Made by a program: the position numbers and the translations under genes. 64,000 bases of DNA from Apostichopus japonicus (lineage: Eukaryota; Echinodermata; Holothuroidea; Aspidochirotida; Stichopodidae), in NCBI RefSeq assembly GCF_037975245.1, contig NC_092568.1:9003001-9067000 (forward strand), read 5' to 3'. Of the stretch, positions 1 through 37,900 are shown in pieces. The notes below the pieces were generated by a model. It searched no databases, was not told where the DNA came from, and was given only the letters and a program-made list of their open reading frames with translations. Each line of letters begins with the position of its first letter. Position 1 is the first letter of the stretch.

Positions 1-3000
1 GAGTAAAATCGCATGAAGCTGATGCTTTTGACCTTGAAAAATACTCCTTAATCACGATGGAGTATAAACGTTTGCAGTGTATGATAACATTTGTAAATTT
101 CTACCTTTTGCTATAGATAGCTCAAAGTAAAAGGAATTTACAAAAAGTATTTGTTTAATGTACCGATCTTCAACTCGTCACAAATGACTTTACATCTTTA
201 TTATTATTATTATTATTATTATTATAATTATTAGGAAGTCGCTTTATAGGTTTGTTGGCAGTCCATCACGGTAGTGTTATGCACCTGCAAAAGGGGAATG
301 AGGTTATAAAACTAGACTTGGTTTCCCCTCATCCCCCCCCCCTCCCCGCCCGTCACTCCCTCATAAAAAAAATCCAATTATAGTATGGCATCTGTGATAT
401 CATCAATTCAATTCGGTAATGTTTAATATACAGATTCTCAATACATCAAAAATCATTTGGCATTTATTTTGTTAGGGCGTTGTTTGCAAGTTTGTTGACC
501 ACCCACGCCTCAGTTGAGTTAATGGGTTTGTCACATTGGAAGGAGGGAAAACAGTGACGGAAATTGGCTTATAAGCCAATTTCCGTCCTCACGGGCCCTC
601 CCCACCATGCCCTTCCATTCAAATAAAACAAGGTCTGTTCTCTTCTAATCTTGGAGGAGGTATAGTTTACATAGCAACATGTACACTTTCATTCCCCTCT
701 ACCTACATAATCAAAATTTGCCTCCTACGTCTTTAGCCTATATGATTGAATGTTTTTTTTTTTTTGGATAGCCTATAATAATATACAGTACATCATTTGC
801 AATAATGACTTGCTGAAACGCGTCATAAACTTTGTCTATTCTCTGCCTTGCATGCATTTGTTTTAATATAAATTAATACATGAAAATAAATTGATGGATT
901 TATATCAATTTTACAGATCGTTTCGTGCAAACTGATCTTCATTATATCTTAATTGCATTATTTGTTTTGTGTCGCGCCGCGCGCGTAAAGTGATTTGTTG
1001 GTGACAAAGAACTCTAAAAATAGCCTTTCAGAGGACAATGAAGCCCACGTAACACCTGCCACAGTTTGGATAATCTAGAAAATGTTTGTAAAGGTTCTAT
1101 TAATTGCGACGTGTGAGTCGAAATTGATTTTTGAAAGGATTTTATAATTTTTCTAATTTTTTTTATTTTAGTCCCTACCCCAACACGGACTATCATACGC
1201 CCTCACACCCCTCCCCCACCCACACCGCATGTGTCGAAACTGGCAATATAGTTGTGTAGTGGTATAACAAAGCAGTCTTTATAGCTCGCCGGATGTTGGC
1301 AAACCTTTGAATGTTTTCACCTCAAGTTACAGGACAAAACTATAAACGGAGGCTCGCCTTATAACTGTTGGTGCCGTCCCCTCCCCACTCCCTCCCCCAA
1401 CTCAGAAACCCCGGCTATGGCCATGGTTTTATATTTGGTAAATGGATGATTCCATTTTTGAGATAGAGGGGAGACATGTTTTTCTATTGATGTCTGGTTA
1501 CTGTTGTTGCCTGTGAGGAATTAACCAGGCTAACAGTCTAGGTGTTAGACTAAGCACTCTCATTGATGAGTGTTTTTTCATTTATATGTTCAATGTGAAT
1601 ATTCTACGTACAATTTGATCATTTTACGTAGCTGTGCTTGCTGGCCAACCCACGCTCATTTATTTTCAACATTTGAGTTGAACAACCTTCATTAATTCAC
1701 CCATAACTCATTAAAAAAGTTCTAATCTAGGCTATGTATGCAACGTCATTATTTGCGTCATGTAGCTAATTTACTGTACGTGTACTGTATAAGTCGCGGT
1801 AGATCACTGTGAAGGTGTTATTAAAGCAGTCACTAACCAGACTGCTTTTGATTTTGAGGGGAGAACACAGATAAACGGATGAAAGCAATTAATCATTTGA
1901 AAAAAAACCCACAAAAAAACAAAACATTTATTTGATATTGCTACTACTTTTGTCGAATTAAAACTTCCGTTCAGCTCGGACGAGGTGTTAGGAGCTCTAT
2001 GGCTTCAATTTTGGGGCCTGGGAAATCTGGGGGAAAAGGACTGCATTCTCACTTTCATAATATACTTCCTGAAAAGTGAAGGTATCAAACGAGAATATGG
2101 TAACATAATTGTTCTGGGGCCCAAACTGGCTCTCGATGGTCCTGTTTTCACCAACCACCAAACATAAACCGGTTGTTCTGACCAGAAAATGAGCTTGAAG
2201 CCACTCGATAATAAATGAACACGACTACAGATACAACAAACCACACGTATACTCATTTTTTATTTTCCAAAATTTTATTGCTTCCTTTTAATTGTTTTGA
2301 ATGCATAGAGTTTTAATTGTAATTCACACAAATACATCTTTATAGGGCAGGTATATCCATCAAGCTAAGCAATCTACCTATTGGTAGTTTCAGACTTAAC
2401 CATCATCAAACAGTCCTAAAAAATGGTTTTGTACTTTTGATATAAAACTTTACGCATCTTACAGCATTGCAAAATTGCCAACGAGATAAAAATACTATAA
2501 ATGTCACTAAATTTGGCAATTACTCTTTAGCGCTTCTTTCCGTTACGACTATTCAAACCCAATGTATTATAAGCTTTCCATATAAATTTTCCTGTGAATG
2601 AATATATAATATCTGCTTTGCACAAAAAGAAAGTCCATCCCAGTAATGATGTCAAGTTTTTCATGGTTTGTATCACTTACTATCGTAAACATTTTCACTT
2701 GAATAAAATAATTTTATTAAAAATATCATATTTTATGCAGACAGAAAGCTTTGACCATTTAAAGACATAATCCTTGGGCTGTGCTGGTTAATAAATCATG
2801 AATCAGTTGATATTTCTAATATTTTATATATTTCATAGACTCCTCTTGTTTGTCTGGCTTGTTTTGTCTACTAAGCATTTCACCAGAGAGATAGGGCAGT
2901 TTTACTTTTAATTTTTTGTCTCTCTCTCTTGGGGGAAACACAATTATGAGTTTGTTGTGAAGTGGAATATGGTTATGTAACTCTAATGGTTATGTAATAC

Positions 3001-3060
3001 ATATGGTTATGCGATATAACTGTAACCAACTGTCGTATATGGACTGTGTTGCAGTTCTAT
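1..3060. other. No gene seen (5' edge of window)
   Basis: AT-rich sequence with short ATT microsatellite runs (about 201-233), C-rich runs and a perfect palindrome at 556-587. None of the small ORFs shows recognisable homology or splice context. Confidence 0.5.
556..587. repeat. Perfect 32-bp palindrome
   Basis: Two 16-nt perfect arms, left gacggaaattggctta, with no spacer. It could be a remnant of a small foldback element or a cruciform-prone site. Confidence 0.9.
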
Positions 3061-3069
3061 GTTATCTTT

Positions 3070-3205
3070 GGCTTGATAACAAGAGAAGGCAATCTTGGCT
3101 TGAAAACAAGAGCAGGTAATCTAGGCTTGAAAACAAGAGATGGTAATTTTGGCTTGAAAACAAGAGAAGATAGTCTTGGCATGAATACAAGAGATGGTAA
3201 TGGGG
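3070..3205. repeat. Short minisatellite, ~27-bp unit
   Basis: About five diverged copies of a unit like ggcttgaaaacaagaga plus about 10 bp. As 27 bp is a multiple of three, it produces spurious ORFs on both strands. Confidence 0.8.
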
Positions 3206-3489
3206 TAGATATGAGGTTAAAGGATGGCTTTAGGCAGAATTTTAGTCTTGATATGTTACAGGCCAAGCAAAGAAAAACAAATTGAGTGCGAGTAAGTTTC
3301 GATAGCCATTTCGATTTTTCAAGATATGCAGCTTTTACTATAATATGTTGAATCTCTGGAACGGTCCTTTAAGACTGTTTTGGCCGAAAAGTTAATGATA
3401 ATCCATTGTTTCTATGAAATCTAATAACTGATCAAAACCAGGATCTTCTAATCTCATAAAACCAGCAGGACATCTCTGGATGGCATAAA

Positions 3490-3675
3490 ATACAATTTTC
3501 CACCGAGTTACTGACCTAATGGATCTGTGTCTTAGACTAAGTGATCCAGCCACTTTGATTAATGACCCTCAAATGTTTAAAGGTTAATTCTTAAAAAATA
3601 TGAAAGTAATATAGAAATACAACCTATCATATCAAAATTAATTTTGTGCCTAAAGTCATCCTCTCAGATGTTGTA
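3490..3675 (+). repeat. SINE-like interspersed repeat, copy 1
   Basis: Shares an ordered set of short blocks with copies near 30180, 59620, 61670 and 62140: gacctaatgg, cttagact, atccagccacttt, atagaaatacaac, cctatcatatcaaaa and aaagtcatc. The head weakly resembles a tRNA A-box; no clear B-box remains. Confidence 0.55.
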
Positions 3676-3699
3676 CATATTTGATTTCATTTCCAAATT

Positions 3700-5190
3700 A
3701 TTGATTATTTATTATTTCTCATGACACCAATTCTCCATGGCTACTTGCACATAACCCTTAGCATTACCTAAACATGTGCATAGCAAAATATAGCATATTG
3801 TTTGCAATTTCAACTTTGGCAATACTTCTTTCTTTTTCTAAAATGAAACATCTACTTACTATGAAAGACTATAAGCAAATCTACTTATAGGTTTTTAACT
3901 TTAATTCATAATTTAATTTCACTCAATTTCTCAAACCACTGTAGTAATGTTTAGTTTATAAACATTCACCTAAAATGACAAAGTTACTGAATGGCAGTGA
4001 AGATGACTATATAGACGTTTGTAGCTAAGATATTAATCCATCATCTTATTAATTATCATTTGAATTTTGTGATTACACAAGTATTGAAAATGGGCAGTAC
4101 TGTTTGTTATCACTCACTAAGCCATTGTGATTATTACTGACTCATCCACGTGGATTACAAAGTTACACTGATTGTCTTGTGACAATTGAACTTTTATATT
4201 TTCCAATCACTTACACTGCAACTAATGAAGGTTATTCAAGTGTATAGTCGATAATGTTCTTTTCATGGAATATTGTTTCAGTTTTTTAATTACTACTTAA
4301 TTCCTTGTCAATCTGCTTTAACGACTTCATTAACAACTTTAGATGTGGCATAGATATCAACAGACCTGTCTGTACTCATGACACATGCAACTGTGATATA
4401 TTTCGCAGGTACTTAGCACACATAACACCATGTGTGATGTGTGTAGCTATTGCATTCACTGTGCATAGTAGGCCTTAACCATTTCTACATATGAAATATC
4501 CCTAACGCTTTGACTGCAAGAGTTACTCAGCACACGTTTCACAATTTCTATTGAACATTCAATATATTCCTGTGATTAATACTGCCAGATGTTCGTATCA
4601 CACACTTCAACTTTGGTTTCTACCTTACAATACATAAAACGATACATTACTAATGCAACTAATGTTCAGGTATTTGTATAGCTTAATAAAGTTCAGCACT
4701 AGCTCTTACAATTGCTAAACTTTGATAGTCATATGCAAATTGAGCCTCATGAATAATTATTTCTTTAACGATTCGTACATTCCTTTTTAAGTGACACAAT
4801 AAATCACACCATTACCGTACATTTCTCTGTCAAATAAATCTGAATAAATATTTCTCTGTTGTTTTATGTTTCCCTCACCCAAAAAGCAGAGATAATGATA
4901 TTTTTATAGGAATGTTACCCTTATAATCCTCAAATATAGTCTTTCATTTCCATGCAATGTACAGAGGTGCCTACAGAATAAATAAAAACAAACAGTCCCG
5001 TTGCTATGACAACCAGCATAACTTCAATAGCAACTAAACGAGAAAACAAAACATTGGATTTTTCAAACGGAAAACATACAGATCGACATGATTGCTCCAA
5101 AATATGCCAGAAAAAGTCGAATAAATTATCGCTGATGATGATGCTTCGATTAAATTCAACAAACACTTTAACATCACCTTCAAAGCATTT
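3700..5190. other. No gene seen
   Basis: AT-rich, unique-looking sequence. A 102-codon minus-strand ORF at 4930-5238 has one hydrophobic stretch but no recognised homology or splice support. Confidence 0.4.
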
Positions 5191-5194
5191 TGCC

Positions 5195-5368
5195 TTACTG
5201 AGACCTTTTAAATGTCTACAAATTAAACCTCTCTTCAATGTAGAAAAATACTGTCTTACTGGGACCTATTAAGTGTCTACAAATTAAGCCTCCCTTCAAT
5301 GTGTAGCAAAATACTATGTCTTACTGAGACCTAGTAAATGTCTACAAATTAAACCCTCTTCAATGTAG
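5195..5368. repeat. Tandem repeat, about 2.5 copies of a ~70-bp unit
   Basis: Repeated order of blocks: gagacct, gtctacaaattaa, cctc(c)cttcaatgt, atactgtcttact. It lies within the likely SELENON 3' UTR or flank. Confidence 0.85.
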
Positions 5369-5958
5369 AAACATCATATGGAAGGTCATGACATCTAGAT
5401 CAGTACTTCTGAAATCTTCTAGCAATCATTAGGCGTGCTAAAATTTGGGGTGTCAGACACTTGATGACCTTTGACCAAATCTCTCGACTACTATTCCGTT
5501 AAGAAATATTTGAAGCAATCTTCTTGTACTTATTGTTGTTACCTTGCTTACGATGATTATCCACCAGAGAAAAACTCTACAAGATCTTCACAGCATATGA
5601 ACATTAAATAAAAAATTAGCACTTACCCCATTTTGCTTGAGACTTGTGTAATAAACAAGAGACACTTTTGAAAAGTAGCATAATCACATGTAAAAATTTC
5701 AAAACAGACAAATTTTGAAATTTTCTGTTTTACGTTCATATTTATGAAATGAAACATGACTAATCAAGGCTGATCATCAGTGATCACTGAACTAATATAT
5801 GGTTTCAGATATCAAATGTCATAAAATTATGAAAAAGCTGCTTAAAAAAGAAACGAAAAACAGAGCTGATGTGTAACCTAAGCAGATCAATTTACAAGAA
5901 GGTAACTACTGTAGCACATCTGGAAAGACTTGGGAATAGGCAAGACTATCAACCTCAC

Positions 5959-6115
5959 CTACTGAGAAAAGAATCCAAGCCTCTTAGCTCGATTAACTCC
6001 TTCTGTCAGAAAGTTTGTGTACACGGTCACCAAAGGATCACTCAATAATCTGAAATCAGATGATAAAACGTTATTAATATCAGCCATTTGTCTTGCCTGA
6101 TATACATGTGTCGAG
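5959..6115 (-). CDS. SELENON: SELENON exon 9 with stop
   Basis: Encodes the C-terminus ending [16 protein letters not shown] and a TAG stop. I chose acceptor tttgcttag (exon start 6115) because it keeps phase and has a pyrimidine-rich tract. A second phase-compatible AG about 30 bp downstream would give a slightly shorter protein. Confidence 0.85.
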
Positions 6116-9100
6116 CTAAGCAAAGTTAAAATGGTCAGGACTTCTTCGAAAGATGAGGGAGAAGGGGGGGGTAATTTTCTTTTCAAATTTTCCTCCATGG
6201 ATAAAAAAGTAAAACTTTATACTCCAAATGATGCATCCTGAGGCATAGTTAGACTATAAATTAGGTTTAAATGCAAACTTGTGCTGATAAGTATTTTTTT
6301 AAATTTTTCAGGGGGGGGGGAAAGGGGGTTGTTCACTCCCACACCTATCGGATCTGCATCTCAGGGCTTTCATGGGCTCTGAGAGCGGTCCAATTAGAGT
6401 GGTCCAATTATTGGAAATATAACAAACACCCTGATGGAATGTTTTTCTGCACAAACTGACAGTGGAGGCAGAAAGATCATAACAATGATCTAACAGACAT
6501 TGACTTACTCAGTGACTGACACGGAAGACTCATGACTCTCATCCAGCATATCGTTGGCATTGACTTCATGAATCACCGTTCCGTTTGGAAGAGAGATCAA
6601 CATTTGGACGGGAAAACTGAAGCGAGATATGAAAAGAGAGTATAAAGTTTTGAGAAAGGCTCCCCACCAACACTTGGCGCACAAGATAAGTGAAATCAAC
6701 TGATATGGTTAAAGAAATGGATATGGGTTTTAAAGATGACAAAGGACTCTACACTTGAATAAAAGTTGAAAGAATTAGTGCAAGAGAAGTCTCATGTCAT
6801 ACACATAGCAGTTTTACAGAATTTCTTCAATCGAAGATTTAAACTTTCTTCGTTTACTACACTGTCTTCAAAAATCGTTATGCAAAAATGGCTGACTACA
6901 TGCAAAGATGGCAGGTTTGGTACATGAAAAAAAATTAAGACACTGTTAGGGAAAATGATAATTCAGAAATATTTCTGTAAAAAGGATAACGCTGAAGTTA
7001 TCCCCTTTCGAGTCTTTCAAACAAGAAGCAACAGGGTTGGCGAAACGAAGGCATGAAAAATTTGTCGGACTTTCAAAGGTGATTTTACTGGAAGTTAATT
7101 TCTCCAAACTTTATATTTTATAGTAAACTAACAGTTGTCAACAATCAATTTACCTGAGAAGTGTCTTCCCTGTCAAACAAAAAAGAGGCATTAACCATGC
7201 TTTGAAATTTCTCTAACATTCTGTAATATCTCGTAAGATTTGCTTAAAAAATTTGCTTAAAGAATTTTTGCAAATTTCTGTCAATGAAAAGCAAAATGTG
7301 TTCTTGCTTTATGCTGCACCCATACTGTCTGCTTTTCGTAGCATGAATTATTATTCTGCCAGGACAAAAACCGTGATTCCTGCTTAAACATATCTGATAA
7401 CTGTGAAGAAGGAAAATTGATGAATCATCTCCTAAATTATGGCATCCACCTTGTGGACTTTTGGTGCACAGGTGTAAAAATAGCAACCCCATGGGGGGAG
7501 ATATACAGTATAGGAGTATGTTCCGCTCCACGTTTTTAGTAGCTTCTTTTGCAACTGTTGTGTCCCTGTTAATCACCATCGAATTTCTGTTTACTTTATA
7601 CTACATTTACCTGAAACTGCAACCCCAAGGAGAAAGATATATCTTTAAGCTCAACAATTACATTATAGGTACGTAAATGCTCATAAATATTACAAACAAA
7701 TTCAAATACCATGACTAACCCTTGTTGTTACCGAGTTGAACAGAGACAACAAGAATGGTGAAAACCTTTTGGCCTATTTAATAATTAAATGGAATGGCCT
7801 CAAATCTATACATGAGAGGAGGAGACTTACTTATACTTCTCTAGACAGAGTGTGGCTAAGTTTGCTGCATAACTATTGACTTGATCATCCTTGGCTTCCT
7901 GCAAGTCCGCGACAAGAGACCAGCTGCTAACGAAGTAAGTCTGTAACAGCTTCAGGACGGGCGGACTCTCGAGAGATGTCTCTCTCAAAGTCCGCCCCGA
8001 ACCTGAGAGCAAATAATCAAAAGGGTTTGGAGCTTTTATTATGTTAGGAGTTTACAGGATGCAATAAAAGCCTTAAGACACGTTTGTGACGATTGGTTAT
8101 TCCAGTTTTGGGGACACGAATTTCGCATCGAACAATTTCGCTAGTTTGATGAATCTATGTCTTGATTGGATTTGTACGATTTTGAGAATCTGTTCCTTTT
8201 TTTCCATCAACATTAGAATCTAGGATGACCACTCTCATATGTGCACTGATCTAGCCTTCTCTGCAAGAATCTAGCCAGACTTGCCACTTTCATTAAATAT
8301 AGAGGCTAAATATTTTGCAACATTGTTGGCATATGTATATTGTGCACAAAATTGTGTCAATTACTAGTGAATCTGGTACAGTGGGTTGCTATAATGTAGA
8401 TGGGGTGGGGAGGGTGGGGGAGCATAACATGTCATGGAAGGGCCAAAGCCACTTGAAGGATTGGGGTGCTTGAAGGTGACCCTCATGTAGGGTAATGTGG
8501 GGGGTCTTAACCCACAAAGAAAATTAAACATTTCAACATAAACTGGTGCAACCTCGCAAGACCATAGATAATGTCATCAATTAGCTCTACACAAAAGGGT
8601 GTACTAATAAACTTTTTTGACTTTGTCTGAGGCAGTGGTCTAATTCTCTCTAAGACTAAATGAAAATCCCGACTGAAACATTCCCCGACTGACGATGGGA
8701 AGTTGGTGGACAAAACCATCCTCCCCCTCCCCCCCTCCTACCTGTCCCCCATGAGCATGTCAGTGAGCTAAATGACATACGAACAAAGTTTTGCAGTTTT
8801 AGAAACAAAAATTGCTCCTTCCCTCTCTCTGTTTCCCTCCCTCTTCTAAATTCCTGATCTCAGCCAGGGCCAGTTAGGATCTTACCTCAGCATGACTGGT
8901 CATCCAGTGCACCCCAAAGGAGGATGCTGTGGACTAACTTCTTCTCTCCTTCTGCACGCTGGAAAGCCTCTTGGAATGGAAGATAAGGAATCTATGAAGT
9001 AGATCAAACAAAATCAAGCATCATAAAAATGGCTGAAATGATTGTTCATAATCATCTATATGATGATATCACTCATTTCTAATAATTTTTTTTGTTTCTT

Positions 9101-12100
9101 TAATAAATTCCAAACATGATGAAATAAAATATAAACTATTAGATTATGATATATTTTAAATCAATTGCAAATCAAAGTACCTGTGAACATAAATGATAAC
9201 TCTTGCTTTTTTGTGGTAGCTGTGTTTCCATATCCATTTTCAAAACAAAGGATGGATTTCAGATTATCAACTTTACAGGGCTAATTTTTAAGGTTTTTTT
9301 TCTTTTTCTGGTTATCCAATGGGCAAACAGGTCTTATTTTTTGGTTATTCGAACGCCCATTTGGTTTTCCATAAAATACAGCAAAGTAACAGAGAACAAC
9401 TGTTATGTAAACTGTAGGAGAGTTCTTTGGTTTGGTTATTAGAACACCAGCTTTGGGCCAAGAGATGGATGATAGGCATACCTCTAGTTTTCTTTTCTTT
9501 CAGTATCTCCAAGTGGTGCAGGGTGGTATCAATTTATCATTAACTATCCATGGCATGGTCAATAAACCATTACCTATCCATGGCATGGTCATTAAACCAT
9601 GACCTATCCATGGCATGGTCATTAAACCATTACCTATCCATGGCATGGTCATTAAACCATTACCTATCCATGGCATGGTCATTAAACCATTATCTATCCA
9701 TGGCATGGTCATTAAACCATTACCTATCCATGGCATGGTCATTAAACCATTACCTATCCATGGCATGGTCATTAAACCATTACCTATCCATGGCATGGTC
9801 ATTAAACCATAACCTATCCATGGCATGGTCATTAACCCATAACCTATCCATGGCATGGCCATTAACCTATAACCTATCCATGGTATGGTCATTAAACCAT
9901 GACCTATCCATGACATGGTGATTAAACCATTACCTATCCATGGCATGGTCATTAAACCATTACCTATCCATGGCATGGTCATTAACCCATAACCTATCCA
10001 TGGCATGGCCATTAACCTATAACCTATCCATGGTATGGTCATTAAACCATGACCTATCCATGACATGGTGATTAAACCATAACCTATCCATGGCATGGTC
10101 ATTAAACCATTACCTATCCATGGCATGGTCATTAAACCATTATCTATCCATGGCATGGTCATTAACCCATAACCTATCCATGGCATGGCCATTAACCTAT
10201 AACCTATCCATGGTATGGTCATTAAACCATGACCTATCCATGACATGGTGATTAAACCATAACCTATCCATGGCATGGCCATTAACCTATAACCTATCCA
10301 TGGTATGGTCATTAAACCATGACCTATCCATGACATGGTGATTAAACCATTACCTATCCATGGCATGGTCATTAAACCATTACCTATTCATGGCATGGTC
10401 ATTAAACCATTACCTATCCATGGCATAGTCATTGAACCATTACTTATCAATGGCATGGGTCTTTAAGTAACAATTTTGGTTTCAAACATATATACACTGC
10501 AATTATTTTTATAGCAAAAGTGTCTTACTGTTTCACCTGTGCACTTACTAAAAATCTTAACTTTATCAACGGACTGCACTTCATAAACATTACATTCATG
10601 TAAATCTACACAATTCTTACCACCACAGGTACATGGTGGGTAGTCAGGTACCCTTTATTCAGGACTTTTTCTTCAAATATTTCTTTATCTTGAATTACAT
10701 AACACAAGCTCAGCATGTTTACAAACAAACAAAAACCTTTTTAAACGGATAAAACTGGAGTTCTATCGCCTTCATCGCCTCCTCTGTGGTGACAGCAAAG
10801 TCCCAAGTTATCGCCTCTCTATATTTCTTGGAGTGATGGTTCTCTGGCTCAAAGAGGACTTCGCCATCTTCACCATAGATTGCTACTTGCATAGATGGTT
10901 CAGGTGACGTCAATCTCATCTCTGGTAAGAACCCAATATCAACCTCCATATTGCTATCGTCGGATGAACCATAAAGCCACTCCATGTCTAGTATGATTAA
11001 TTAAGAATTAAAAAGGATGAACAGTACAAAAGCAAATCGGATGGATTGCATTTGAAGAATGAAAATCCAAGGCATTTTATACACAAGTAGCATGTGATTA
11101 CCAGAATACAAGCTAGGATAAAATTATCTAGTATTTCTAAACTTATATAAATCTTAACCTATTTTTGTGATCTTAAATGACTTGCTTACCATGTAGTACA
11201 AATTTTTCATGGAAAAATGGTGTTGATTTTCATCCAAGTGTGCTCCTTTGTTTGTACCATGAAGTTAAAAGAACACACTTTGGTGGAATTATTGTAAGTT
11301 TCATGAAAAATGGACAAAACGCTACCAAAAAAGAACATGTTAAGAAAGCAAAGTTAGCAACTTTTGTACACTGAAGTTTTACTACTTTCAGTATTTTATG
11401 ATAATTAAATTTATAAATCTGAAAACTGCTGTACAAAATGTGACCACTAAATTAAACAGTGCTATGTTTCTGTGTACAAAAATGGAGCTCCTACATCTTG
11501 GCATCCTTCCCCACCTTTGCACAGCATGTTAATATGTATACTTCATAAAGCTAAAATAGATCCTGGATGCTTACCCACATTAAGGCTCTTATTTGTTGGT
11601 ACGTACAGGCTGAAATGTTCGATATGCGATGAATCCTTCGTGGCTATAATATTACCCACAATCTGGCCAGGGGTAAACCAAAATGGATGATTTGGTGGCT
11701 CATTGAGCTGAAACTCGGCATGAATTCTGTGAAGTAAAAATTCAAAAATAAAGAGCGTCAATAATTCTTACAAACTTGAGCATCCATTTGTATCTTTTCC
11801 TACTCATTTACATCACATACATTCTCACATCTCTATTAACTACATTCAGATCAGACACTGAAATTCAAGTTCAACTGGGAGCTAAAAGAGAAAATTCCGT
11901 CGGTGTAAAAGTAACTTGATCCAAACTTGAAGATTTCAATCTGGAAGCAGAGACCGATATTAAACACAAAACTCTGCAGAATAAAAAAATCAGTGTAATC
12001 TCTCGTTTGGATTAAAGCTGACCTTGATGGGATTGCTCACATTTGAATCAGATCGGACTCTGATCTCAATTAATACACGAAAATTACATCCAGGTGGACA

Positions 12101-14580
12101 TTTTTTTCCCCTGCCCTGTAGGGACATTCAATCCAGATGGCTGGACTACACACTGAAAGCCCATGACTCTACTGTACATATTAAACCTTTGAGTAAATAT
12201 AAAGGTGTCAAATAGGAGGCCTTGTAAAGTTGAAACAACCTATTGCTTAATCTAAACCAATTAAAATACATACAAATCATTTACAACAAATATTCTGGGT
12301 GTCATCATTTCCCTGAAATACACTTTGGTTACACTTTTTAAAGTCTCTCGACCTTATCAAAAGATAAACTCCACTTTGAAGGTTTAATTCTTCGTACTTG
12401 ACCAGTACTTTACATAACGATGGTTTTCTCACCTGAATACAATGTCGACGTATTTCTCATTTTCGGCTCGTATGACTGCCTTAGCTCCCTGAGGACCAAA
12501 CCTGGTATGGACAAACGGTCGCTTATGAAACATACTGAGGAGACGATGAATGACGACCTCGTTGCGTTTGACTTTCGGTGGGTAGAAACGGTTGTTAGAA
12601 AGCGTACTGGAGAAGAGATTGAGGTTACTCTTAATGATGGTGTAAGGTTTGCCAACTGGAGTGACATCATCTGGAAAGAAGGGTTTGAACAACCCCACGT
12701 GAAAGCCAGCAATGGCCTGGTTTGGTGCCGTCCAAGCATTTAGGCCAGATAATGCTGTGACATATCTCTATGGAAACAAAACAGATTTTGAATGGTTTTT
12801 GTTATAAGGTTTGTAGCATGAGCTGCAAGGGAACAAGGCTAGCTCAATAATTATGGAAGAGGGCAATACAAATTCTTTCTATCCCATTGAGCTACAGTAC
12901 TGTATTAATCTGCTGTAGCACAGGAACAATTCTATTGGATATGACTACTGTAGGTCTATTATTTATATGTTACGGTTACCATGGAAACGTTTGAAGTTCA
13001 TACATTCCTTTCAGTGATTCCAGGATGTTTAGAACATTTTCAGAGACAAAGAGTCCTTAATGAATGCTGCAGTTATTGCAGCTTTGCGTACCAAAATCCC
13101 AGACATGTACAATTACTGTAAGCTACCATTTCAGTCATTTCACATAAAATTGACATGTAGATAATAGAGACAGCACATTCCAAAGTTTTCATTATTTAAC
13201 TAAAAGTTTACAGTTAATCCATCATGTCCGGTACTTTCACCTGTGTCAATGGTTATTGATGTGACTAGAAGAGAACTAAAGTAACTCACAGAGCAAGTAC
13301 TACAGAGGAAATACTAAGCATACAATGATACAACTAACTTTCAAATAATATTCCATAGTTTATCTTTAGTTGAGTAATCCACGGAAAGGACAACTTGCCA
13401 GATACTGTTGCCTACATTAACTTGCTTCAAGGGGACTAGGGAAGCAGAGTTACTGTACCCACAGATCAATGAGTTGCACTGACATCTCTTCTATGAGCAC
13501 ATCCTGTGACTGTTTACAAGGAATTTTTAGATTCTTACTTGATGCATACGTGTGTAGGTTGCAAATGTGGGACAATTCCTTCCTCTGTTTTGAGCAAGAG
13601 AAACACCTGCTCAAAGAATGGCCATGCCTAATGTAACTGTACAGTAGGTGATTGATGCATTATAAATCTCTCAATGAGGATGGTGAGAGGAAAATGGTGA
13701 AAACAACTGGGAGTTGCAATTCCAAGTGAGTGGGAGCCACTATTTGGCCCCCAAGCCCCAAGTTGAGATACTCATCCTAGTCAAGTAAGTCAACTGAAGA
13801 TGGTCAATATTTTCTATGATATGGCAGACTGTGGCTTACAGATGATTGAGACTCTTGGGCATTTTTCATGGTTTCTTGTTGTAAAGGTTTAAAGTGAGCC
13901 TCTAGTGTAAGAACTTCCTCTGATGGGTCTACATCTTCTTCTGCAAAGCTGAAATCAACTTCTTCATTCTGTTTTAATGAAACAAAATTAGAACTGTTAG
14001 TGTTGATGGTATCATGACAAATTTGGGGTAAAAATGTCACAGACTTGCTTTTAGGTCAAGAATTGAACAAAGAAAATACTGTAATTTTACAACTCGACTT
14101 TCTGAAAGTGATAACTATCATTTTAATACCAGCATAAAATTTTGATGGCACGAGAAATTAATGTATGCAGATATTGCCATCAGCTGCTTTCAGACCACAG
14201 AAAAGATTTACAATTGAACCGTGTAATTTTCAAGAGAATTAATGAAAGTACTGTAAGTTGTACCTTACCATCAACTCATCAGAAAGAAGCTTTTGTACCA
14301 TAGGTTCGAATTCTGCAATACTGATGAAACCATCCCTATTAAGATCGTATCCTTTGAATAACTCCATCCCTTCTTCTCCAAGTCTTGCTTCAATGTAAGC
14401 TGTTTCTTCAGAAAGACTCTGCAAGTATCTTTGACAAAAATATGCAGTACCAATGGCTAGGCATGCAACCAATGTTGACAGACATATAATTCGTCCAATG
14501 CCACATCCTTGCGATTTTTTCTCAGAACTAGTTTTTCCCTGGCCTCCACCTGGGTCAGGGGTTTTGTTTTGGCGTTTCAT
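5959..14580 (-). CDS. SELENON: Selenoprotein N gene, nine coding exons, complete
   Basis: Selenoprotein N is an ER-membrane protein that senses luminal calcium and supports SERCA and redox homeostasis (known for the family). Joining nine minus-strand exons (14580-14269, 13968-13840, 12767-12433, 11726-11575, 10987-10737, 8991-8886, 8002-7831, 6616-6509, 6115-5959) gives one frame of 573 residues plus stop, with GT-AG introns and matching phases throughout. Residues about 29-48 form a hydrophobic membrane segment. An EF-hand loop starts at D79 with N81, D83, G84 and E90. The middle follows the family in blocks such as [19 protein letters not shown]-like, [10 protein letters not shown] and [18 protein letters not shown]. 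The redox motif S-C-U-G has an in-frame TGA at codon 428, and [14 protein letters not shown] lies near the C-terminus with an NGT sequon. The length is in the range known for vertebrate SelN. The start is the first ATG before the membrane segment; an upstream coding exon is not excluded. Confidence 0.95.
6509..6616 (-). CDS. SELENON: SELENON exon 8
   Basis: Acceptor cgcttcag, donor gtaagt. It encodes [20 protein letters not shown], matching the SelN C-terminal region, including the NGT glycosylation sequon shared with vertebrate SelN. Confidence 0.94.
7831..8002 (-). CDS. SELENON: SELENON exon 7
   Basis: Acceptor ttgctctcag. It encodes [20 protein letters not shown] immediately after the Sec residue, then [12 protein letters not shown] and CLEKY, all family blocks. 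It ends with two bases of a codon before donor gtaagt. Confidence 0.95.
7959..7997 (-). promoter_or_regulatory. Predicted selenocysteine redefinition stem-loop (SRE)
   Basis: In the spliced mRNA the sequence beginning 6-7 nt after the UGA folds as GGGCGGACT paired with AGTCCGCCC (9 bp), a small TT/GAG internal loop, then GAGAGA paired with TCTCTC, closed by a GACA loop. Human SELENON is known to carry a functional SRE stem-loop just 3' of its UGA; this is the positional equivalent. The pairing is visible in the sequence; function is inferred. Confidence 0.8.
8886..8991 (-). CDS. SELENON: SELENON exon 6, selenocysteine exon
   Basis: Acceptor cttcatag. It encodes [30 protein letters not shown], then TGA, then one G before donor gtaag. 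The tract before and after the TGA aligns with the SelN active-site region, so TGA is read as selenocysteine and not as a stop. Confidence 0.95.
8887..8889 (-). other. SELENON: Selenocysteine UGA codon (Sec428)
   Basis: In-frame TGA directly after TGC in the S-C-U-G motif. The frame continues through three more exons of clear SelN homology, which is the evidence for recoding. The codon is the last complete codon of its exon; one base separates it from the splice donor. Confidence 0.95.
9541..10458. repeat. 30-bp minisatellite in SELENON intron 5
   Basis: About 30 head-to-tail copies of a 30-bp unit containing the near-palindrome tatccatggcatggtcatta. Later copies form a four-unit (120-bp) higher-order block (variants ggcatggtc, ggcatggcc, ggtatggtc, gacatggtg) repeated about four times, the last incomplete. 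The 30-bp period leaves long open frames on both strands (up to 290 codons), which are artefacts. Confidence 0.97.
10737..10987 (-). CDS. SELENON: SELENON exon 5
   Basis: Completes the split Asp and encodes [19 protein letters not shown], ending with FYPFKK at phase 0 (donor gttttt). The following intron (8992-10736) contains the 30-bp minisatellite. Confidence 0.94.
11575..11726 (-). CDS. SELENON: SELENON exon 4
   Basis: Starts after acceptor ttcacag, completes the split Arg codon and encodes [20 protein letters not shown]. It ends with one base of an Asp codon before donor gtaagc. Confidence 0.94.
12433..12767 (-). CDS. SELENON: SELENON exon 3
   Basis: This 335-bp exon has acceptor ccatag and donor gtgaga. 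It encodes the [19 protein letters not shown] region followed by [19 protein letters not shown] and FGPQGA, all close to vertebrate SelN. It ends inside the Arg codon completed by exon 4. Long antisense and out-of-frame ORFs over it are shadows. Confidence 0.94.
13840..13968 (-). CDS. SELENON: SELENON exon 2
   Basis: Forty-three codons, phase 0 at both ends, with acceptor aaaacag and donor gtaagc. It encodes the acidic [18 protein letters not shown] stretch and then [10 protein letters not shown], a well conserved SelN block. Confidence 0.92.
14269..14580 (-). CDS. SELENON: SELENON exon 1 (membrane anchor and EF-hand)
   Basis: Encodes residues 1-104: a basic, Gly/Lys-rich N-terminus, a hydrophobic segment (about 29-48) and the EF-hand around [14 protein letters not shown]. 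It ends in phase 0 at an ATG codon followed by the donor gtaagg. Confidence 0.93.
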
Positions 14581-18869: not shown

Positions 18870-19466
18870 CAATAATAATAATAATAAATTGCATTTATAT
18901 AGCGCTTAAAACAGCGTTTCAAAGCGCTTTACAAAGTAGGAAAGAGACAAAGGAAACCAAGGGAAAAAAAGAAACTAGGAATCAAACAGTGATGTTTAAG
19001 TTGTCTCTTGAAAATACAGGGGGAGGGAGAGTCACAAACGTGAAATGGGAGTTCGTTCCAAAGAGAAGGCACAGCGACAGAAAAAGCATGATCGCCGTCA
19101 CGAGTGCGATTACGTGGATCTGGAGTTCATTGCAAATGCGCATGATAGGAAGAGCAAAGCGTAACTGTAGTTGACCGACGCAAAGGAGTAAGAAGGTCAG
19201 TGATATATTGAGGGGCAAGCCTGTTGATCGCTTTGTAGGTGAGAAGTAGGATCTTAAACTGGATGCTCTGAGAGATGGGAAGCCAATGCAATGAACGGAG
19301 TACAGGAGTGATGTGATCAGACTTTGTAGTGAGTGAGACTAGGCGCGCAGCAGCATTCTGAAATCTCTGAAGGGGAGCTATATGAGAAACTGGCAAATGC
19401 ACATACAATCTGTTGCAGTTATCCAGATAGGAGGAAACAAAAGCGTGAACCAGTCGTTCAGTTGAT
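18870..19466 (-). mobile_element. 3' end of a CR1/L2-like LINE, degenerate
   Basis: On the minus strand the broken frame reads LVHAFVSSYLDNCNRLY, APLQRFQNAAARL, SIQFKILLLTYKAINRLAPQ and then, after frameshifts, DHAFSVAVPSLWNELP. This is the classic C-terminal series of a non-LTR retrotransposon reverse transcriptase ORF. The element ends with gcgctatataaatgcaattt and an ATT microsatellite tail. It is 5'-truncated and inactive. Confidence 0.9.
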
Positions 19467-34900: not shown

Positions 34901-37900
34901 ACAGTAACTTCAAAGACTACCAGTTGCTTATCTTATCACTGTATCATTAAGTTTATTCTCATTCCCCCTCCCCCAACCACCCTAAAATTGCTAGTTTTAG
35001 TGTTCAACAATTGAACCAGGATTTTGACTTAACTAGAATATTCTTGCGCTACATACATGTCGGGGAAAGACAGGGGTCAAATTCATGCATGGTGGGAAGA
35101 ACTTTTGGTACTTACAAAACTTGATTGCTTCCAGAAGGTGTATTATCATATATAATTACTGTAGTCTTGATATTGAAATAACAATTAAACTATTGCTACA
35201 TGGGATGAGGTGGTCACTGTATACTTACAGTACCCTACCAGTAGGTCATAGGTTCTATTTAAATGTAAAATAAAAAAATTACAACCAAGGCAACCAAGTT
35301 GCCACATCTGCACAAATGATGATGTCAGGGACTAAAAAAATAGACATACTGTACAACTTGATTAAAGAGAAGTAGAATACTGCCAACACTTTAATCTCCA
35401 ATAGAGCAACACGTTGACTTTCTCAGTGTACCCAACTTTCAGAAAAGTTGGCTTCATATAAAGTTTAAAAGAAATATAGGTAAACTTTGCGGCTCATATG
35501 TCATTATAAGCTAAATAATGTAGTTTTATTTCATTTTACAAGCTATAAATAAACTGGTGTTGGTTGCATATACATCCTCATTTGTCACTAGGGGCAGATC
35601 CAGGAATCTAAATAGGAGAAGGGGGTCGCCATAGGGGTCACTGCAGCAGACTCTGGTGTATGGGGTCCTCCCCCCCCCCCTGCAGAAGAAATGAAAATTT
35701 AAAGTGTGAAATGGTGCATAGGCATATTTAGACTTTAAAGTAGATCTACTTGCAAGATTCTGCTGACAATTTCTTTTCAAGTTTTTGTGTGAGGTTGCAA
35801 AGGGGGATGTACCACCCCCTAACCCCCGCCCCATCCCCAACCCTGCCAAGGTCTGTGCCTGATCAATGTCTTAATTCATTGTTGTTGTTTGATATGGCAT
35901 TGATCTCTCTCTGCACAGCCATGTTTAAGGCCGAATTAAGCAGTATTGTAAATACAAAGTACAAGAATGGCTGTGAATGAGAAAAGTGGATTTCATTATT
36001 GGTTTTAAATTTCTTTGCCTTCATCAATATCTTTGTGAACAAGTCAGTGATGAGTTCTGGTGGTCAAACAACCCCTTGGAGCCTGAGTTTCACTATGTTT
36101 ATTTGTCAAAAGATAACTAGTTTTGCAAAAAGACAATTTGTAACCAACCAAGACAAAGCAAATGTTACAGTTGCAGAGTCTGTGCCTTCATGCTGTAGTC
36201 GTACAAGCCGAACGATGAAAATCAATAATGAAGGCTGCTGGAACATATAACATGATACAGCAAGCGCTGGCCCCAAGGGTCCACCAAAGTCTGTTAACTC
36301 CCAATCCTCAAGCATCTTGGAAAGTACTTATTATCATATTTTATATTTTAAATTTTTTCTTCTTTTTGTTGCAATGCACTTTTAATAAGTCTACAGCTGC
36401 TCAGGCTTTAAATTGAGATCTATAAAATAGCGTATCTACTTCTCAGTTCTTTTCCATTTCGTTTGGTTGTCAGGGATAAGAATTTTAGTAGAGGAATATA
36501 ATTCTAACGAGGTTTATTCTTTAATGCAATATCTACATGATGTTCCTTTGTTTTGAGTCACATCAACCCTGAGCTTTATGAATGGTACTCACTTGATAAA
36601 TATTGTATGAATCATAAATCACTCGATGATAGGTGCATGAATCGTAGTCACTCGATAAATAGAGCAGGTACCATGATCGCTAAATACCATAATCAAAGGA
36701 TAAAAAGTGTTTAATTCGTCACCACTCGATAAATATTGCATGAATAATAACCACTTGATAAACAGTGTGTGATTTGTAATAAGTTGACACAAAGTGTATG
36801 AATCATAATAACTTGATAAGAGGTATTAAGAAAATCACTTAAGTAGTAATCACTTGAGGGATGGTATATGAATCATAATCAAAGGATAAAAAGTGTTTAA
36901 TTCGTAATAACTTGATAAATAGTGAATGATTCGTCACCACTCGATAAATATTGCATGAATAATAACCACTCGATAAACAGTGTGTTGAATTGTAATTACT
37001 GGACAAATAGTGTATGAATCATAATCACTTGATAACAAGAAGTATTAAGTAAATCACATTCATAGTAACCACTTGGAGGATAGCGTATGAATCGTAATCA
37101 CTCAATAGATAGTGTATGATTCGTAATCACTCTATAGATAATGTATGAATCGTAATCTCGCCATAGTGTATGAATCGTAATCACTGTATAGATAGTGTAT
37201 CATTTGTAATCATTTATAGATAATGTACGAATCGTAATCACTCTATTGATAGTGTGTGAATCGAAATCACTCGATAGATAATGTAGGAATTGTAATCACT
37301 CTATAGATAGTGTATGAATTGTAATCACTCTATAGATAGTGTATCATTTGTAATCACTCTATAGATAGTGTATCATTTGTAATCACTCTATAGATAGTGT
37401 ATGAATTGTAATCACTCTATAGATAGTGTATCATTTGTAATCACTCTATAGATAGTGTATCATTTGTAATCACTCTATAGATAATGTATGAATCGTAATC
37501 TCGCCATAGTGTATGAATCGTAATCACTCGATAGATAGTGTATGAATTGTAATCACTCTATAGATAGTGTATGAATTGTAATCACTCTATAGATAGTGTA
37601 TGAATCCTTATCACTCTATAGATAGTGTATTATTCATAATATGTACGATTCATAAGCACTCTATGATAATGTATGACTCGTAATCACTCGATAGTGTATG
37701 ACTCGTAATCACTCGATAGGTACAGTAGTGTGTAATTCTTATATATCACTACATAGTGTATGATTTGTAATCTCTCGATAGTGTATGAATCGTAATCACT
37801 CTAGAATAGGGTATGAATCATAATCACTCTATAGAATAGTGTATGAATCGTAATCACTCTATAGATAGTGTAGGAATCTTAATCACTCTATAGAATAGTG

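Follow-up and report, generated by a model that had tools for sequence, protein, structure and literature searches.

The question raised by this locus is whether the in-frame UGA of a SELENON-like gene in the sea cucumber Apostichopus japonicus, together with the strong stem-loop that follows it, forms a selenocysteine redefinition element (SRE), and from where such an element may have come. SREs are structures of the coding region located 3' of UGA codons for selenocysteine (Sec), and mutations made in SELENON are described as showing that the stem, the loop and the spacer curb termination and boost Sec insertion (PMC8704476). The window, meaning the whole stretch of 64,000 nucleotides that was analysed (contig NC_092568.1, positions 9,003,001 to 9,067,000), carries on its minus strand a nine-exon SELENON gene, recognized by translation of that strand and by a check of the splice borders.

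All features of this gene lie on the minus strand and are given in positions of the window. Exon 1 (14269-14580) contains the start codon, a hydrophobic segment and an EF-hand, and was placed by translation, its donor and Pfam, while exons 2 (13840-13968), 3 (12433-12767) and 4 (11575-11726) were placed by GT-AG borders and an open frame. Exon 5 (10737-10987) ends at a weak donor, AAG followed by GTTTTT, which was chosen because it keeps both the frame and the homology. Exon 6 (8886-8991) ends with TGC TGA G, exon 7 (7831-8002) opens with GT TCG GGG at 8002, and exons 8 (6509-6616) and 9 (5959-6049) follow, the last including the final stop. GT-AG borders are read at all eight introns. The predicted spliced frame has 552 codons, with the final stop as codon 552 and a single internal stop, the UGA of codon 428 (8887-8889), which is the proposed Sec codon and falls one base short of the end of exon 6. 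An earlier note had placed an in-frame UGA between exons 6 and 7, with SelN homology on both sides, and this is borne out by the joined frame, which is open across the junction, and by alignments to the bacterial SelN-like proteins described below. The intron that separates exons 5 and 6 carries a minisatellite (9538-10466) with a 30-nt unit repeated about 31 times. At 18932-19465 on the minus strand there are open frames that by eye resemble the terminal part of a reverse transcriptase from a non-LTR retrotransposon, with no Pfam match for 19130-19465.

Family models did not name the gene. Pfam returned only EF-hand models for the protein, four of them in the N-terminal region with E values from 2.4e-6 to 1.3e-3 and each below its curated cut-off; the best, EF-hand_7 over exon 1, reached 28.2 bits (E 2.4e-6) under a cut-off of 30 bits. 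In the PDB, the best matches were likewise EF-hands of calmodulin (E 0.0011), calmodulin being the name of 8 of the 9 matches. Since Pfam offers nothing beyond these sub-cut-off EF-hands, the name SELENON rests on the human Sec motif and on published residue positions. The Sec UGA sits in a SELENON-type motif, as a member of the family should have it, and residues G, R and R stand at +1, +4 and +7 from the UGA. With the human SELENON Sec taken to be residue 462, these three would align with human G463, R466 and R469. Changes at G463, R466 and R469 are listed in a review as disease changes of the human SRE. The C-terminal part of the protein, compared with the whole genome, gave four matches, every one of them at this same locus.

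The message after the UGA reads through a 6-nt spacer, GGUUCG, and then enters the foot of a hairpin (7959-7997, minus strand), in agreement with the distance of about 6 nt in the spliced message that the earlier note had proposed. In the minimum-energy fold, the lower stem of 11 bp is made by GGGCGGACUUU pairing with AGAGUCCGCCC, above it lies a single bulged G, and the upper stem GAGAGA/UCUCUC of 6 bp closes a GACA loop; in the centroid fold the bulge is moved by one base, giving 7 + 10 bp. The stem had been expected to consist of 9 bp plus 6 bp, an expectation right as to a strong hairpin and wrong as to the sizes. The hairpin lies wholly inside exon 7, hence only its distance from the UGA depends on splicing. 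Its upper stem-loop, GAGAGA-GACA-UCUCUC (7971-7986, minus strand), occupies nucleotides 18-33 past the UGA, the site that matches the hairpins of the bacterial SelN-like genes.

The stability of this structure stands out within the gene and against several kinds of randomization. The 45 nt that start with the stem fold at -31.3 kcal/mol and rank first among 537 codon-stepped stretches of the coding sequence, and neither 5000 synonymous-codon permutations, whose energies average -8.9 (sd 3.4), nor 5000 uniform synonymous recodings contained a sequence as stable. Dinucleotide shuffles gave z = -5.75 for 7958-8002 and z = -4.33 for 7946-8002, with no equally stable sequence among 200 in either case. 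As the permutation, recoding and shuffle tests are all near zero, the structure far exceeds the constraint imposed by the protein, and folding of the spliced exon 6-7 region, the check that had been suggested, yields a stable hairpin beyond that constraint. The idea that the hairpin simply follows from the conserved amino acids after Sec (GSGRTLRE...), with no selection on the RNA, is thus already disfavoured and highly improbable, for the stretch does permit weak hairpins (1345 of 5000 synonymous permutations hold a contiguous stem of at least 6 bp), but an 11-bp contiguous stem was reached in only 4 of 5000 permutations and 7 of 5000 uniform recodings, and -31.3 kcal/mol in no permutation at all. 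Over the hairpin, Rfam gave mir-4743 as its best match (E 0.97, 21.5 bits under a cut-off of 72), which was judged to be due to chance.

Another function could be imagined for the same structure, namely that it acts chiefly in splicing or in mRNA stability and not in recoding. Its 5' foot at 7997 is separated from the acceptor by five bases of exon 7, a closeness that would suit a role in splicing; nevertheless, the place that the hairpin takes with respect to the UGA agrees with the published recoding element, no finding hints at a splicing role, and there is very little chance that this is its main function. The feature is best read as the SRE of an intact SELENON gene, an element of a known kind, with a probability of about 0.88. 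SelN is listed among invertebrate selenoproteins, and a sponge SelN is among the SECIS elements described there (PMC3473315); because SREs of SELENON are established and SelN is known in invertebrates, the element of the window is a further member of that kind. The earlier suggestion that it is the counterpart of the human SELENON redefinition element finds support in its position, spacing and strength.

In both animals, SELENON has in its coding sequence a stem-loop close behind the Sec UGA, set off by a short spacer, presumably also of 6 nt in the human gene (SEPN1). In the window hairpin the two stems run almost into each other (17 bp with one bulge and a 4-nt loop), which seems to set it apart from the human element. 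By analogy, the element would work as the human SRE does: when the UGA of the spliced message occupies the ribosomal A site, the foot of the hairpin would lie 6 nt ahead; the hairpin would most likely slow the ribosome and disfavour termination; and the extra time may allow Sec-tRNA, aided by a SECIS in the 3'UTR, to decode the UGA, so that the gene of the window would insert selenocysteine.

A candidate for that SECIS was sought with a pattern of the SECISearch type. With the longer apical gap, the plus strand of positions 1-5958 had no site, and the strand of the gene had two downstream of it, at 3922-3850 and 2406-2359. The second (2359-2406, minus strand), about 3.5 kb past the stop codon, is a candidate eukaryotic SECIS of type II shape with AUGA, a UGAU/UGAU quartet, AA and an apical mini-stem CUACC/GGUAG. 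Its 48-nt core is more stable than most shuffles (z -2.44, 1 of 200 equally stable), and with flanks (98 nt) the value is z -1.74, with 10 of 200 equally stable. The shorter apical gap, which drops 3922-3850, gave at a cost of at most 2 two sites on the plus and four on the minus strand of the window, and 0 and 1 in the sequence L001; with a dG of -9 or lower there remained one on each strand of the window, and 0 and 0 in L001, and a second pattern site of similar energy lies on the opposite strand at 35691. No Rfam family of any kind, SECIS included, scored above its gathering score in the window, and the SECIS family was absent from the eight matches with E up to 10 in positions 1-9100. A search of the whole genome with SECIS models found no match, and the same was true of the controls, hence that search is uninformative. 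The site at 2406-2359 is a likely SECIS of SELENON, as yet a candidate at the level of the pattern. Tandem arrays were also observed in the 3' flank, at 3068-3201 (27 nt x 5) and 5194-5371 (61 nt x 2.9), possibly within the 3'UTR.

As for the machinery of Sec synthesis, a SepSecS gene is present in this genome, with three matches above the cut-off and a best score of 370.8 bits. The tRNA-Sec model gave 13 matches in the whole genome, none above the cut-off, and it matches 14 of 14 control genomes as well. A pattern of the tRNA-Sec anticodon arm had one match with one mismatch, which looks like chance, and a T-arm pattern had none in the genome; these searches are limited and give no sign that the tRNA is absent. 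Tandem clusters of 81-base tRNA-like sequences were seen just under the tRNA-Sec cut-off (G000 C13:21196887-21199047 and C8:33343258-33343908) and are perhaps tRNA-Ser arrays.

The origin of the animal element is a separate matter, on which bacterial sequences bear. SelN has been said to appear animal-specific (PMC2375036). A term search of two reviews of prokaryotic selenoproteins (PMC13188914, PMC9312934) found no mention of SelN, and no report of a bacterial SelN was seen in the titles and abstract openings of the literature searched. When 84,980 genomes, one per species, were searched (contigs of at least 3,000 bases) with an exact degenerate pattern that encodes DQSCUGSGRT, a single contig matched, and it did so twice: JASBRJ010000095.1, of 4074 bases, from a bacterial metagenome-assembled genome (MAG). 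Positions 1158-3690 of this contig hold two tandem SelN-like frames, copies A and B, of 407 and 425 residues, which are 37% identical to each other in alignment and both of which have a UGA aligned with the animal Sec residue. Compared with the protein of the window, the two copies gave E values of 4e-37 (28% over 298 columns) and 3e-34 (32% over 275). Pfam and NCBIfam gave only sub-cut-off matches for them, the best being Thioredoxin_7 (E 0.029) and a glutaredoxin-like model (E 0.064), and by eye both proteins open with a lipoprotein-like signal.

In the same MAG, a selA match of 405 bits stands beside a partial selB match of 329 bits, the latter above its cut-off. Contamination of the contig by animal DNA is unlikely, because the third-position GC of the SelN-like pair (0.58 and 0.63) is like that of selA (0.57), selB (0.68) and the neighbour frame (0.61), the animal gene having 0.44; the contig is short, however, and the frame next to the pair matches models only below their cut-offs, some of them cyclase models. 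Within the phylum of the MAG (149 genomes), the protein query matched 2 genomes and the alignment query 3, with full-length matches in the genome of JASBRJ010000095.1 only and, in the others, short matches around the UGA or its counterpart. Thioredoxin-like relatives with a UGA were seen in the same phylum at G001:C71, G135:C27 and G134:C229, with the contexts WCUTNARIVR, FCUTNARTLR and RCUPAGS, in that order; a sixth match of the alignment query, G135:C34, has one TAA inside and was left out of all hairpin counts. Queried with the protein of the window, the pattern search gave 32 matches in genome contigs and 3 in viral contigs, of which tblastn confirmed none, and in viral contigs the alignment query had 16 pattern matches, again with none confirmed, and a longer pattern had no match. 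The shorter CUGSGRTLR occurred in 10 viral contigs, none of them SelN as judged from the translated flanks.

The hairpins past these bacterial UGAs can be compared with bacterial SECIS elements (bSECIS), for which PMC13188914 gives limits: the loop has 3-9 nt and a G within its first two bases, the stem has 4-16 bp, the loop lies 16-37 nt from the UGA, and the energy is at most -7.5 kcal/mol. Hairpins within these limits follow the UGA in both copies, at -10.7 (A) and -9.4 kcal/mol (B), with the loop GGUC after 24 nt, and GCAGGUCUGC is common to A, B and E. coli fdhF (K-12 record), whose loop lies closer to the UGA (18 nt when measured likewise). A bulged U is described in the upper stem of bacterial SECIS elements (PMC8704476); it is absent from the stems of A and B, which are continuous over 6-7 bp. 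In the three distant relatives, the best hairpin has its loop after 23 nt in each case, and only that of G134 reaches the limit of -7.5 kcal/mol. When the upper region of the animal hairpin is treated as one unbroken stem of 9 bp, with an energy of -9.8 kcal/mol and 23 nt between UGA and loop, it too lies within the loop, stem, spacing and energy limits, and like a bSECIS such as that of fdhF it is placed 3' of the Sec UGA. It differs in its loop, which is GACA where fdhF and the bacterial SelN copies have GGUC, and in being accompanied by an extra lower stem and by the candidate SECIS in the 3' flank. SelB is not known from animals.

These likenesses bring up the possibility, tentative and rather doubtful at present, that the SRE of SELENON descends from a bacterial SECIS, which as an account of origin is compatible with its identity as an SRE. 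A related idea is already in print: Mariotti et al. 2015 speculate that SREs derive from bSECIS at least in SPS genes (PMC4561486). Those elements too are coding hairpins at the UGA, though they belong to a different gene and, in the HRE, overlap the UGA and take a three-stem form (PMC4561486). A bacterial SelN with a bSECIS-shaped hairpin at the SRE site is what that speculation predicts. The tandem bacterial genes, whose UGAs stand at the homologous residue and precede hairpins within the bSECIS limits, in a genome where selA and selB matches adjoin, speak for descent. So do the upper 9-bp stem of the animal hairpin, with its loop after 23 nt as against 23-24 nt in bacteria, and the three distant relatives from the same phylum, with their best loop after 23 nt.

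Several observations weigh on the other side. The five bacterial sequences lack the nine outer base pairs that build the animal's lower stem, with 1-4 of the 9 positions pairing; the animal loop lacks the GG or GU of most bSECIS loops; and the energy limit is missed by two of the three distant relatives. The limits themselves are permissive, being satisfied at 60 of 386 codon positions in A and 37 of 404 in B (8 of 531 in the animal gene), and among 4000 synonymous permutations any hairpin of bSECIS type appeared in 268 (A) and 247 (B), with an equally good one in 51 and 140. The 45 nt past the bacterial UGAs are ordinary in energy, since 126 of 3000 permutations of A and 1411 of 3000 of B were as stable. 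The shared register of the loop is weak evidence because the protein sequence itself pushes hairpins into it: 426 of the 1345 permuted animal hairpins also place the loop after 23 or 24 nt, a register found for 9 of 177 hairpins at any animal codon. At the observed energy, this register arose in 7 of 5000 animal permutations, and only 1 of 531 animal codon positions, which must be the UGA itself, combines the limits with a best loop after 23 or 24 nt. With permissive limits, a register favoured by the protein and a lower stem absent in the bacteria, descent stays a conjecture.

Should descent nevertheless hold, for which the odds appear to be clearly against, SelN would be no animal invention: it and its UGA would have come from bacteria, where a lipoprotein-like pair with UGA and bSECIS would exist and the hairpin would have bound SelB. 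The SRE would then be that bSECIS, retained after gene transfer, extended by a lower clamp stem, and kept by animals as the helper of a new 3'UTR SECIS once the latter did the main decoding. The wider bacterial group with UGA tends to favour a transfer from bacterium to animal over one from animal to bacterium, which is the less likely direction.

SREs tune the amount of selenoprotein N, and changes in the human SRE are linked to muscle disease, as stated in a review. The strong SRE in this sea cucumber is an added case of a known kind. The most interesting consequence of finding it in the window is the bacterial counterpart of SelN and of its hairpin, since the bacterial SelN pair makes the idea of descent from bSECIS testable for SELENON, the gene of a functionally characterised SRE.
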